60,338 nt of DNA from Actinomycetes bacterium (GTDB taxonomy: Bacteria; Actinomycetota; Acidimicrobiia; Acidimicrobiales; RAAP-2): assembly GCA_021831125.1 (NCBI GenBank), contig JAKBNI010000002.1, positions 1-60,338 of the forward strand. The letters run 5' to 3'. This document shows positions 41,412 to 60,338 of this stretch, piece by piece. The notes below the pieces were generated by a model. That model had not been told where the DNA came from, ran no database searches, and saw nothing but the letters and a program-made list of their open reading frames with translations. The stretch's first letter is position 1. Each line of letters begins with the position of its first letter. The translations under genes and the position numbers were made by a program.

Positions 41412-42061
41412 CCATTCGCGTCCTCGTGGCGGACGATCAGGCGTTGATTCGCGCCGGGTTCACCGTCCTGATCGATTCCTCGCCAGACTGTCTCGTCGTC
41501 GCGGAGGCGTCCAACGGAGCCGAGGCGGTCCGGCTCGCGAGCCGGACCCGGCCCGACGTTATCTTGATGGACGTGCGCATGCCCGTCATGGACGGCATCG
41601 AAGCCACCCGACTCATCGCCACCGATCCGGCCCTGAGCAACTCGCGCGTCGTCATCCTCACGACCTTCGACCTCGACGAGTACGTCTACGAGGCCCTGCG
41701 CGTCGGCGCGAGCGGCTTCCTCTTGAAGGACACGCCTCCGGACGAGCTCCTGAGCGCCATCCGCGTGGTGGCTCGCGGCGACGCCCTTCTGTCGCCGAGC
41801 GTGACGCGCCGGGTCATCGAGCAGTTCAACCGCCTCTCCCCACCCCCCTCACGCGGGGACGAGCCCTTCGCGGTCCTCACTGAGCGCGAGCGCGAGGTCC
41901 TAGCGGCCGTGGCGCGGGGACTGACCAACTCGGAGATCGCCGACGAACTGCACATGAGCGTCGCCACGGTTAAGACTCACGTCAGCCGGGTCCTCTCGAA
42001 GGTCGGCGCGCGCGACCGCACCCAGCTCGTCGTCCTCGCCTACCAGGCCGGGCTCGCCTAG
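41408..42061 (+). CDS. NarL/FixJ-family response regulator
   Basis: The 217-residue protein has a receiver domain (VLVADDQALIRAGFTVLI, phospho-Asp in DVILMDVRMPVMDG, Lys in FLLKDTPP) and a LuxR-type HTH (LTEREREVLAAVARGLTNSEIADEL, HMSVATVKTHVSRVLSKVG). Its likely target is the ABC exporter promoter with the 11-bp-spaced repeats. It converges tail-to-tail with the next response regulator. Confidence 0.93.
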   Translation: MTIRVLVADDQALIRAGFTVLIDSSPDCLVVAEASNGAEAVRLASRTRPDVILMDVRMPVMDGIEATRLIATDPALSNSRVVILTTFDLDEYVYEALRVGASGFLLKDTPPDELLSAIRVVARGDALLSPSVTRRVIEQFNRLSPPPSRGDEPFAVLTEREREVLAAVARGLTNSEIADELHMSVATVKTHVSRVLSKVGARDRTQLVVLAYQAGLA

Positions 42062-42092
42062 CTATAACCGACCGTGGCCGGGTACAGCTAGG
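42057..42092. terminator. inverted repeat holding both stop codons of convergent regulators
   Basis: CCTAGCT (42057-42063) and AGCTAGG (42086-42092) are perfect arms around 22 bp, and each arm contains the TAG stop of one of the two convergent response-regulator genes. It could form a bidirectional terminator, though the stem is only 7 bp. Confidence 0.4.
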
Positions 42093-42732
42093 TCAGCCGG
42101 CGCTCGGCCGCCCAGTGGGTGAGCTCGTAGCGGCTGGAGAGCTGGAGCTTTCGCAGGACCGAGGAGACGTGGCTCTCCACGGTCTTGATCGAGATCGCGA
42201 GCTCGGTCGCGACGTCACGGTAGGCGTAGCCGCGCGCGATCAGTCGCAGCACCTGGCGCTCGCGCGGGGTGAGCTGGTTGAGCTCGGGGTCCACCTCGGC
42301 CTCCCCGAGGTGGCCCTCGGAGGCGAACGCGTCGAGGACGAAGCCCGCGAGGCGCGGCGAGAAGACGGCGTCGCCGTCGGCCACCCGGAAGATCGCCTCC
42401 AGGAGCTCCGGGGCCGAGATGCTCTTGGTGACGTAGCCGCGCGCCCCGGCGCGCACCACCGCGATCACGTCCTCGGCCGCGTCCGAGACCGACAGCGCGA
42501 GGAAGCGCACCTCGGGCGCGACCCGCGCCACCTCGGTCAAGACGGCCTCGCCGCCGCCGCCGGGCATGTGCACGTCGAGCAGCACGACGTCGGGGCGGCG
42601 CTCGAGGATCATCTCGACGGCCGAGCCGACCTCGTCGGCCGCGCCCACGATCTCGACGTGGTCGGCCAGCTCGGCGCGCAGCCCGGCGAGGATCAGCCCG
42701 TGGTCGTCGACGAGGAAGACCCGGGGCCTCAC
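42088..42732 (-). CDS. NarL/FixJ-family response regulator of the PspC-kinase system
   Basis: I start at GTG 42732 (VRPRVFLVDDHGLILAGL), overlapping the kinase stop as GTGA; the track ORF is a 1333-residue run-on. The 214-residue protein has a receiver (DVVLLDVHMPGGGG, Lys in GYVTKSISA) and a LuxR HTH (LTPRERQVLRLIARGYAYRDVATEL, SIKTVESHVSSVLRKLQ). Confidence 0.92.
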   Translation of the reverse strand: MRPRVFLVDDHGLILAGLRAELADHVEIVGAADEVGSAVEMILERRPDVVLLDVHMPGGGGEAVLTEVARVAPEVRFLALSVSDAAEDVIAVVRAGARGYVTKSISAPELLEAIFRVADGDAVFSPRLAGFVLDAFASEGHLGEAEVDPELNQLTPRERQVLRLIARGYAYRDVATELAISIKTVESHVSSVLRKLQLSSRYELTHWAAERRLT

Positions 42733-55460: not shown

Positions 55461-55683
55461 GGTTCTCCTCAGGGTTGCGTGAAACCAACCCGAGGGATCC
55501 GAATCGGTCTCCGCCGCGGTCGCGGCGAGATGAGTAGGACCACCCTACCAGGCGCGCGACCGATCCCCGCCCGCCCGGGAGCGGGGTTGTGACGTTGGCC
55601 CCTAGGGGGGAGGGGGACGCCTCCTTAGCGTGAGGTGCGGCGGTGCGCCCGAGTGCTCCGCACCGCGTGAGAGTGAGGTGCCC
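55461..55683. promoter_or_regulatory. divergent spacer between DEAD-CSD helicase and hsp20
   Basis: The 223-bp gap has a 7-bp hairpin CGCCGCG-gt-CGCGGCG (55512-55527), GTAGG-accac-CCTAC (55534-55548) and a perfect palindrome CCCCTAGGGG (55599-55608). The helicase leader on the minus strand is long, as in cold-shock mRNAs. No promoter is firmly placed. Confidence 0.4.
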
Positions 55684-56133
55684 ATGGGTGACCTGAAGAC
55701 CATGAAGAGCGAGAAGCGCCTGCCGGAGGTGAGCCTCAGCTGGCCGTCGTGGCGGTGGTTCGACGACGTGTTCCGCGACGTCGACTGGCGTCCGGCGTTC
55801 CGCGTCGAGGAGTTCCAAGAGGGCGGCCAGATGGTGGTGCGCGCCGAGCTTCCGGGCATCGACCCGGACAAGGACGTCACGGTCGAGGTCGTCGACGGCG
55901 ACCTCGTCATCACCGCCGAGAAGCGCCACCACGAGGAGACGAACGAGCGCCACGTCCACCGCAGCGAGTTCCGCTACGGCATGCTGACGCGCAGCGTCGC
56001 CCTCCCCGAGGGCGTCGACGCGTCCAAGATCGAGGCGACCTACAAGGACGGGATCCTCGAGGTCCGCACGCCGATGCCCGAGACCCACAAAGAGGACGGC
56101 GCCGCGAGGAAGATCGCCATCCGCCGCGGGTGA
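55684..56133 (+). CDS. Hsp20/alpha-crystallin small heat-shock protein (second copy)
   Basis: The 149-residue protein has a Trp-rich N-terminus (SLSWPSWRWFDDVFRDVDW) and a full alpha-crystallin domain: MVVRAELPGIDPDKDVTVEV, VITAEKRHHEETNERHVHR, FRYGMLTRSVALPEGVD and KDGILEVRTPM. It is closer to classical Hsp18/HspX-type proteins than the copy at 48518. GTGAGG precedes the ATG. It lies divergent from the helicase. Confidence 0.93.
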   Translation: MGDLKTMKSEKRLPEVSLSWPSWRWFDDVFRDVDWRPAFRVEEFQEGGQMVVRAELPGIDPDKDVTVEVVDGDLVITAEKRHHEETNERHVHRSEFRYGMLTRSVALPEGVDASKIEATYKDGILEVRTPMPETHKEDGAARKIAIRRG

Positions 56134-57346: not shown

Positions 57347-58774
57347 TCAGCGGGTCGGCGCGGGCGCGGGGTGGGGCTCGCGAACGCCCGTGGGGAGCGT
57401 CGCCTCGACCACGGTGCCGATGCCGGGGGTCGAGCGAAGGACGACGACCCCCCCGAGGAGTCGCGCGCGCTCGCGCATCCCGACCAGCCCGAGCGACGCG
57501 CCGCCGGTCGCGGGTGCGGCGTGGGGGTCGAAGCCGCGGCCGTCGTCCACGACCCGCAGGTGCAGGTCCTCCTCGCCGAAGTCGAGGACCACGTCGACGT
57601 GGTGGGCGCCGGCGTGGCGCTGGGCGTTGCGCAGGGACTCCTGGACGATGCGGAACGCGCCCAGCTCGACCTCGGGGGCGAGCCGGGCCGGGCCGCCGTG
57701 GACGGCCAGGCCGATCGTGGCCTCGCCCTGGTCGTCGAACTCGGCCACGAGGCTCGAGAGCGCGGGCACGAGCCCGAGCTGGTCGAGCGCGGGCGGGCGC
57801 AGGTCGCGCGCGAGCGAGCGCAGTCGCGTCGCCGCCTCGAGCGCCTGGTTGCGCGTGCGCTCGAGCTCGCCGGCCATCTTCTCGGTGACGCCCTCGTGGT
57901 GGGCGAGCAGCTCGAGGCGCCGGGCGAGGTGCAAGAAGAGCTGGAGCGGCTCGTCGTGGAGCTCGCGCGCGAGTCGTCGGCGCTGATCCTCCTCCAGGTC
58001 GACGATCTGGCGGGCGAAGAGCCGCGCCCGCCGCTCCTCGCTGCGCTCCTCGGTCACGTCCTCGAAGCTGAGTTGGCGACGGCGCTCGTCGCTGTCGAAG
58101 GGCATGTCGACGAGGTCCAACCGATAGTCGTGGCCGTTGGCGAGCGTGAGGACCCGTCCGGACAGGTCCGCCGACTCCACGTCGGGGCCGAGGACGCGCG
58201 CCAACGGCTGGCCGGTGACCGGTCCGAAGAGGGCGATCGCCGCGGGGTTGGCGTCGCTCACGCGCTCGTCCTCGTCGAGCACGACGATGGGCGAGCGGGT
58301 CGACTCGAAGAGACGGTGGTACCCGGCCTCGACCGCCAGCGCGCGCGCGTTGGTCGAGTCGATGCGGGCCTGGGTCGTGCGCTCGGTCTCGACGCGCCGG
58401 CCGAAGACGACCGCCACCACCACGATGACCGCGAAGTTGAGCAGGTCGTCGCCCGGGTGGCCCTCGCTGTGGGGCAGGAGCAGGTCGGGCAGCCACAGGA
58501 CGAGCGACCAGGCCGTGGTGCCGAGCGAGCCCGGGAGGCCGTAGCGCAGGGCGGCGTAGCCGATCGGCACGACCAGGATCGCGACCGGCAGTCCGGAGGG
58601 GAGCACGCCGCTCGCCAGGTCGGGGTGGACGTCGAGGAAGTAGTGCAGCGCCACGATCGCGAGCACGGTCCCCTGGATGATCCAGAACGGCCCGTCGGCG
58701 AGCGGCGGGCGTACCAGTCGGTCGACGAGGCCACGCGGTCGCGGCCCGTCGGGGGGTTCAGTCGGTGCGTCCAT
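57347..58774 (-). CDS. PAS-domain sensor histidine kinase (NarL type)
   Basis: The 475-residue protein has about four or five membrane helices (residues 25-125), a PAS domain (residues 150-230: YHRLFESTRSPIVVLDED, SDANPAAIALFG), a HisKA_3 domain with RRLARELHDEPLQLFLHLAR, and an HATPase domain (FRIVQESLRNAQRHAGA, VDDGRGFDPHA, GLVGMRERARLLGG). The PAS domain could hold a small ligand or cofactor. It overlaps the regulator gene by 17 bp. Confidence 0.9.
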   Translation of the reverse strand: MDAPTEPPDGPRPRGLVDRLVRPPLADGPFWIIQGTVLAIVALHYFLDVHPDLASGVLPSGLPVAILVVPIGYAALRYGLPGSLGTTAWSLVLWLPDLLLPHSEGHPGDDLLNFAVIVVVAVVFGRRVETERTTQARIDSTNARALAVEAGYHRLFESTRSPIVVLDEDERVSDANPAAIALFGPVTGQPLARVLGPDVESADLSGRVLTLANGHDYRLDLVDMPFDSDERRRQLSFEDVTEERSEERRARLFARQIVDLEEDQRRRLARELHDEPLQLFLHLARRLELLAHHEGVTEKMAGELERTRNQALEAATRLRSLARDLRPPALDQLGLVPALSSLVAEFDDQGEATIGLAVHGGPARLAPEVELGAFRIVQESLRNAQRHAGAHHVDVVLDFGEEDLHLRVVDDGRGFDPHAAPATGGASLGLVGMRERARLLGGVVVLRSTPGIGTVVEATLPTGVREPHPAPAPTR

Positions 58775-59450: not shown

Positions 59451-59490
59451 GCTCACCTCCCCACTGTGGCACACCCTACGGGTACGTGTG

Positions 59491-59502
59491 CGTAGTTCTA
59501 CG
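59491..59502 (-). promoter_or_regulatory. perfect dyad in the response-regulator promoter
   Basis: CGTAG-tt-CTACG is a perfect inverted repeat 41 bp before the regulator start codon, with the 2-bp centre typical of 7-2-7 NarL-type sites. Autoregulation is inferred. Confidence 0.45.
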
Positions 59503-59520
59503 GTATCAACCCGCCATGGG

Positions 59521-59581: not shown

Positions 59582-59595
59582 GGGACTTTAGTCCC
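59582..59595 (+). promoter_or_regulatory. DosR/DevR-type box
   Basis: GGGACTTTAGTCCC matches all 14 bases of the core of the mycobacterial DosR consensus (TTSGGGACTWWAGTCCCSAA, WW = TT). The flanks do not match. It is 106 bp before the ATG of the 4Fe-4S membrane protein. By established knowledge, DosR activates such boxes under hypoxia, NO or CO. Confidence 0.65.
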
Positions 59596-59700
59596 TTTCT
59601 GCCCGCGGTGATTGATGGTGGTGGTGCAGGCGTGGTACTACGTACACAGGTAAGTGGAACCACGGTGATACGGACGTGGCCACACGTTGGAAGGGGCGCG

Positions 59701-60338
59701 ATGGCACTTGTCACCGAGAACGAGTCGAGGTCGGGCTTCCCGCACAGCCACCAGGTCGACCCGATCCCCGTGGCCATCCGGACCCGGCCCCCGGCCGACC
59801 CCGAGGCCACGGGCCGCTTCGCCGCGACCGACCCGCCCCGGGGACTCGACGTCGCTCGCCTGAAGCGGGTCGGGGGCATCCTGCGCGACCGCCGCCTGCA
59901 GTTCTTCCTCATCCTGCCCAACCAGATCATCTTCTGGCTCGTCATCGCGATCGGGATCGTCGGCACCGTGGTGCCGGGCCTCAACTTCGCCACCGCCATC
60001 ACCTGGTACCTGTGGTTCTGCCTGGTCTTCGTGATGATGGTGGTGGTCGGGCGGGCCTGGTGCGCCATGTGCCCCTTCGGCGGCTTCGGCGAGTGGATCC
60101 AGCGGCGCAGCTTCTTCAAGCGCACCACCAAGAGCCTGGGCCTCGGGATCAAGATGCCCGAGCGGGTCGCCCAGTACGGCTTCTTGCTCTCGGTCGGGGC
60201 GTTCCTGGTGCTCACCTGGATCGAGGAGTTCTTCAACATCGCCGGGCCGGGCAACCCGATGGCCACGAGCTTCATGGTGCTCGGCATCGTCGGCACGGCG
60301 GTCGTCTTCTTCCTCACCTTCGAGCGGCGCACGTTCTG
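59701..60338 (+). CDS. NapH/polyferredoxin-like 4Fe-4S membrane protein, cut by window end
   Basis: This open-ended frame is absent from the ORF track. Its 212 visible codons start MALVTENESRSGFP behind GGAAGGGG. A polar N-terminus of about 65 residues is followed by membrane helices (FFLILPNQIIFWLVIAIGIV, LWFCLVFVMMVVVG), the GRAWCAMCPFGGFGEW motif that resembles the Cys-x2-Cys-Pro of NapH/NosR/CcoG-type quinol-linked ferredoxin proteins, and two more helices. A role in anaerobic or redox electron transfer is likely. The C-terminal ferredoxin domain would lie beyond the window. Confidence 0.7.
   Translation, partial: MALVTENESRSGFPHSHQVDPIPVAIRTRPPADPEATGRFAATDPPRGLDVARLKRVGGILRDRRLQFFLILPNQIIFWLVIAIGIVGTVVPGLNFATAITWYLWFCLVFVMMVVVGRAWCAMCPFGGFGEWIQRRSFFKRTTKSLGLGIKMPERVAQYGFLLSVGAFLVLTWIEEFFNIAGPGNPMATSFMVLGIVGTAVVFFLTFERRTF

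Follow-up and report, generated by a model that had tools for sequence, protein, structure and literature searches.

DosR has been studied mainly as the latency regulator of tuberculosis, and a 14-bp palindromic box is known from the low-oxygen 'dormancy' programme of the tuberculosis bacterium. The published consensus of mycobacterial DosR sites is the 20-mer TTSGGGACTWWAGTCCCSAA (PMC2275270). DosR contacts bases through Lys179, Lys182 and Asn183 (PMC4082495), and the phospho-acceptor of DevR is Asp54 (PMC3029386). In the GAF-A domains of DosS/DosT, the heme ligands are the proximal His149/His147 and the distal Tyr171/Tyr169 (PMC4082495). In Streptomyces, GGGACCTTCGGCCC is the core of the predicted OsdR sites (PMC5069765).

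Here we analyzed a 60,338-nucleotide stretch of DNA (the window), which is the entire contig C92 of an uncultured MAG of 2.0 Mb and 87% completeness. Our literature search found no paper joining DosR, a regulon and Acidimicrobi*; as its coverage was incomplete, this is weak evidence of novelty.

A conserved DosR-type box upstream of a membrane Fe-S gene

A first-pass annotation of the window had claimed an exact 14-bp DosR core upstream of a 4Fe-4S membrane gene, beside a PAS kinase/NarL-type regulator pair. Both claims hold at the following positions, the pair being encoded divergently from the membrane gene:

59582–59595, no strand assigned: DosR-type box GGGACTTTAGTCCC, a perfect 14-bp palindromic core (exact match and conservation in sister species)
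59701–60338, + strand: Fer4_5 (NapH/NosR-like) membrane 4Fe-4S protein (Pfam Fer4_5, 3.5e-10), incomplete at the contig end
58758–59456, − strand: NarL-type response regulator with the helix TRTVEGYVS (Response_reg and GerE)
57347–58774, − strand: PAS-HisKA_3-HATPase histidine kinase, the partner of the adjacent regulator (Pfam PAS, HisKA_3 and HATPase_c)

The ATG at 59701 lies downstream, 119 bp from the start of the box and 105 bp from its end. No other site in the 60 kb of the window comes within two mismatches of GGGACTWWAGTCCC; the shuffled window held 0.22 such sites on average, and no exact match arose in 30 Markov resamples. We estimate that about 0.02 exact matches would be expected by chance in a 2-Mb genome, which is improbable but alone not decisive. 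When compared with the 20-mer TTSGGGACTWWAGTCCCSAA, the core matched at 14/14 positions and the outer flanks (CGT...TTT) at 0/6, leaving the full 20-mer unmatched; since the outer positions vary among known sites, this does not exclude binding. Its location between divergent genes argues against a terminator. The source genome contains 9 two-mismatch sites against about 7 expected (the shuffle figure scaled up from the window), a count so near chance that the case rests on conserved positions.

Six sister species keep the box at −119/−120. Among them, 13/14 box columns (17/18 with the edges) are invariant, as against 17/104 flanking intergenic columns (Fisher p=2e-8), and pairwise identity is ~50% in the intergenic DNA around the box and ~93% in coding DNA. 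A near-invariant box within intergenic DNA that has diverged this far, next to coding DNA that has not, points to purifying selection on a short element, and we regard this conservation, beyond the single exact match, as the decisive evidence for the candidate box. A one-mismatch box occurs at the same spacing upstream of Fer4_5 in L059 (G100), and in G093, where the Fer4_5 start is fragmentary, GGGACTTAAGTCAC precedes it by ~120 bp. Four further lineages (L106, L112, L130 and L035) have weaker sites of the DosR-like type, GGGACCTTCGGCCC or its variants, at −82 to −127. Most Fer4_5 orthologues in the genus are without the box.

The Fer4_5 gene and its inferred promoter

A full-length relative of the Fer4_5 protein has 525 amino acids, with a Fer4_5 match of 3.2e-11 and a weak NapH-family match (29 bits, against a cut-off of 213). 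In L059, the gene after Fer4_5 encodes an Fe-S/FAD/flavodoxin oxidoreductase rather than a nap product, for which reason we propose that the Fer4_5 operon probably serves to exchange electrons between the membrane and a soluble carrier.

We predicted the promoter elements and the start by aligning the region with promoters of the TTGACA...GATAGT form, which precede orthologues that have no box:

59612–59639, + strand: inferred weak Fer4_5 promoter, with −35 TTGATG (59612–59617), a 16-bp spacer and −10 GGTACT (59634–59639)

The box center would thus lie at about −58 from the inferred start. We compared 32 orthologous promoters that share this divergent regulator, scoring a box where at least 13/14 positions matched. 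TTGACA was absent from all 7 box-bearing promoters and present in 23 of the 25 box-less ones (p=1e-5, a value that overstates independence, as 6 of the 7 box-bearing promoters come from the sister species). The missing TTGACA and the weak −35 are as would be expected of an activator-dependent promoter.

The adjacent two-component pair and TACG-rich repeats

The NarL-type regulator gene starts 125 bp from the box, divergent from Fer4_5, and the PAS kinase gene follows it. Two further elements lie in the same intergenic region:

59631–59690, no strand assigned: TACG-rich group of elements close to the start of Fer4_5 (TACTACGTA...GGAACCACG...TACGG), kept in sister species
59461–59503, no strand assigned: conserved element in the divergent regulator's promoter (CACCCTACGGGTACGTGTGCGTAGTTCTACGG), with 41/43 columns invariant in six species

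The helix of the adjacent regulator is without equivalents of Lys182 and Asn183 of DosR. This regulator stands beside Fer4_5 in at least 25 box-less promoters, which carry TACG-rich repeats. Promoters with the adjacent regulator have a mean of 2.8 TACG-rich motifs and those without it 0.5, a comparison whose p-value is descriptive since the repeat set was picked after the promoters had been viewed. The TACG-rich repeats are the probable operator of the adjacent regulator. As a binder of the box, it was a candidate that we rejected on its helix, its distribution and the motif co-occurrence; it is probably not the protein that recognizes the box. The first-pass annotation had already cautioned that this regulator, with TVEGYVS, might not be the binder, a caution borne out in that a predicted DosR orthologue with the matching helix is encoded elsewhere in the genome.

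TACG-rich repeats (e.g. TACGTAGTTCTACGG) at 59461–59503 and 59631–59690 flank both divergent genes. Upstream of Fer4_5, such repeats occur chiefly in loci that have the NarL-type regulator as neighbor; other genera have an Rrf2-type regulator in its place. The window also contains, at 41873–42276, two more GerE-domain regulator genes arranged tail to tail, whose helices (TVKTHVS and TVESHVS) are unlike that of DosR.

A DosR orthologue and a predicted heme sensor on contig C56

Five GerE-domain proteins are encoded in the genome, and the DosR helix EKTVKNYV is present in only one, on contig C56. This DosR orthologue (C56 15370–16029; Response_reg and GerE domains) has DevR 3c3w as its best structure match (2e-71), followed by VraR (7e-37). 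Alignment with DevR shows that Lys179, Lys182, Asn183 and the phospho-acceptor Asp54 are kept (helix SEKTVKNYV; receiver motif PDVAILDVRLPDG), and nearly every relative that we examined has the helix EKTVKNYV as well. The Fer4_5 gene has dosR at a distance of ~2.4 kb in G058 and a TVKNYVS regulator encoded 4.4 kb downstream in L116. We also considered a CrbR/ErdR-like acetate regulator and rejected it: the DosR-type protein scores 76 bits against an ErdR cut-off of 390 and is the sole regulator with the matching helix.

Divergent from the C56 dosR is a gene for a GAF-HisKA_3-HATPase kinase. Its GAF domain best matches the GAF-A heme domains of DosT (2vzw, 2e-40) and DevS (2w3d), and alignment with 2vzw and 2y8h places the histidine of GHPAM and the tyrosine of NLYLT at the ligand positions. 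The kinase is probably a heme sensor of the DosS/DosT type, as predicted from these residues. It has a single GAF domain before HisKA_3/HATPase instead of the tandem GAF-A and GAF-B, and we therefore call it DosS/DosT-like rather than DosS proper.

The C56 DosR is more similar to the DosR of some other genera, at up to 72%, than to that of most members of its own, at about 50–56%. G111 carries both DosR types, which suggests transfer or an old duplication.

Distribution of boxes and recurrent targets

We surveyed 120 family genomes, taking a BLAST match at E≤1e-40 as presence of a DosR relative, which is not proven orthology. Genomes with a DosR relative had 112 sites with at most one mismatch against 50 in the reversed control, whereas those without one had 4 against 8; the enrichment rates differed with p=8e-4, an optimistic value because the p-values ignore relatedness. 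Within our organism's own genus, genomes with DosR had 62 sites against 12 in the control. A looser pattern, GGGACYNNRGTCNC with one mismatch, gave 199 forward matches against 99 and was set aside as too loose to define a regulon.

Boxes were found in other promoters, including orthologous promoters across species, and several transcription units, among them genes flanking the organism's own dosR, carry them upstream. At satP-acsA (acetate uptake and activation), 13 of 29 promoters in the genus have a box matching at least 11/14 positions. Boxes also precede genes beside dosR, among them that of an uncharacterized membrane protein (boxes in two genera), and two YgaP-like TM genes; an SDR-like gene and a radical-SAM gene (TIGR04053) have paired sites between them, which are kept in three species. 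Upstream boxes occur in two genomes each at cydA, a Zn-alcohol dehydrogenase gene and a cytochrome b gene, and in one genome at a fatty-acid desaturase gene. The target classes that the first-pass annotation had expected were only partly right. Neither of the two universal-stress genes scanned had a site of at least 11/14 upstream, and the hsp20-type gene of the window (55630–56133, 3.5 kb from the box) has only a weak GTGACGTTSGCCCC site (10/14); the recurrent targets were instead satP-acsA, cydA, Zn-alcohol dehydrogenase, YgaP-like TM, radical-SAM and membrane-protein genes.

Several observations accompany this survey. The GTGACGTTSGCCCC site of hsp20 is similarly placed upstream of the gene in three species. 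The membrane protein, of ~200 amino acids and with no Pfam family above cut-off (L166 10684–11313; L298 854–1396; L276 788–1399), adjoins dosR in G000, and DosR-like boxes precede its gene in four genomes, which belong to two genera. In several genomes, the satP promoter (e.g. L198, L211 and L220) has CRP-like palindromes (TGTGA-N6-TCACA or a similar sequence) downstream of the DosR-like box and before the satP start, which suggests dual control. L040 1438–1514 (G037:C154) is a tandem array of GGGACTTAAGTCC units.

Discussion

We consider it quite probable that the box is a binding site for the C56 DosR and that the heme-GAF kinase would phosphorylate this regulator, which would then activate the Fer4_5 operon and other targets. 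At the level of sequence, the support comprises the box and its conservation, the key residues of the orthologous regulator and sensor, and a box enrichment tied to dosR. From these we infer binding, the direction of regulation, phosphotransfer and the signal. Low O2, or the binding of NO or CO, at the heme-GAF kinase would lead to phosphorylated DosR, which would bind at about −58 and switch on the membrane operon for Fe-S electron transfer; the −35 element of that operon is itself weak. The same DosR would control satP-acsA, the genes beside dosR, the YgaP-like TM genes and the radical-SAM gene, and in relatives also cydA, cytochrome b and the Zn-alcohol dehydrogenase. The adjacent two-component pair may add a second input via the TACG repeats.

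The proximity of the adjacent NarL-type regulator, whose divergent gene lies 125 bp from the box in a family that often controls neighboring genes, could mean that the box is bound by this protein, which would then control the divergent pair. We find this unlikely, given a helix (TRTVEGYVS) that lacks the base-contacting Lys182/Asn183, its retention beside Fer4_5 in at least 25 box-less promoters with TACG-rich repeats there instead, and the large distance of its gene from the boxes found at satP-acsA and next to dosR. It is also quite unlikely, in our judgment, that the box is the site of a different, unrecognized regulator whose palindrome is similar, such as an acetate-responsive factor at satP-acsA. 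The most widespread target is indeed acetate uptake and activation rather than a classical dormancy gene, and some targets are not hypoxia genes; yet the matching helix is confined to the DosR-type protein among the five GerE proteins of the genome, box enrichment tracks the presence of dosR, boxes flank dosR itself, and the cydA, alcohol dehydrogenase and cytochrome b targets fit low oxygen.

A chance palindrome with no regulatory role is very improbable and is largely refuted by the conservation footprint. A 2-Mb genome with one exact match is only slightly improbable, and the two-mismatch sites of the genome are near chance, but the box is conserved almost perfectly within saturated intergenic DNA, recurs at orthologous promoters, is enriched only alongside DosR and, sitting between divergent genes, is not a terminator.

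A DosR site thus remains our preferred reading of the box. The proposal in the first-pass annotation that a deeper lineage of actinobacteria has a DosR-like regulon gains substance from the DosR orthologue (TVKNYV), the predicted heme-GAF DosS-like kinase and the further promoter boxes, and a DosR/DosS-type regulon in Acidimicrobiales, with targets largely different from the known kind, is supported by the sequence comparisons. For the broader proposal that the DosS-DosR gas switch predates mycobacterial dormancy, and that in Acidimicrobiales it drives acetate uptake and activation and a membrane Fe-S/FAD-flavodoxin chain in place of the universal-stress/nitrate-reductase set, we see the chances as evenly balanced. 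If a conserved system of DosR, heme kinase and box does operate in environmental Acidimicrobiales, the switch would be old, its box and regulator having stayed fixed while its targets turned over; this would suggest that gases control both the use of acetate and a membrane Fe-S operon about which little is understood.

Among known systems, the NapH/MauN/NosR-type membrane ferredoxins resemble the Fer4_5 protein in having a Fer4_5 domain in a multi-TM protein, with the weak NapH match; the protein nevertheless scores well under the NapH cut-off (29 bits, where 213 are required), and the downstream gene in L059 is not a nap gene. OsdR/OsdK of Streptomyces coelicolor (PMC5069765) likewise involves a non-mycobacterial DosR orthologue whose gene has a cluster of boxes around it, and shares the site GGGACCTTCGGCCC as well as Zn-dehydrogenase and redox targets with the system described here. 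The OsdR consensus AGGGCCGATCGGCCCT (PMC5069765) differs, however, the box described here being nearer to the mycobacterial GGGACTWWAGTCCC, and the universal-stress and nitrate-reductase targets of the OsdR regulon were not found in this analysis. Compared with DosR/DevR-DosS/DosT of M. tuberculosis, the outer six positions of the 20-mer are unmatched here, the kinase has one GAF domain and is encoded divergently from dosR, and satP-acsA and the Fer4_5 operon stand out among the recurrent targets, with no box at the Usp genes checked. The two systems nonetheless have the 14-bp box core in common, the base-contacting residues of their regulators are identical, and the GAF domain of the C56 kinase is closest to GAF-A of DosT/DosS, with the heme histidine and the distal tyrosine kept.
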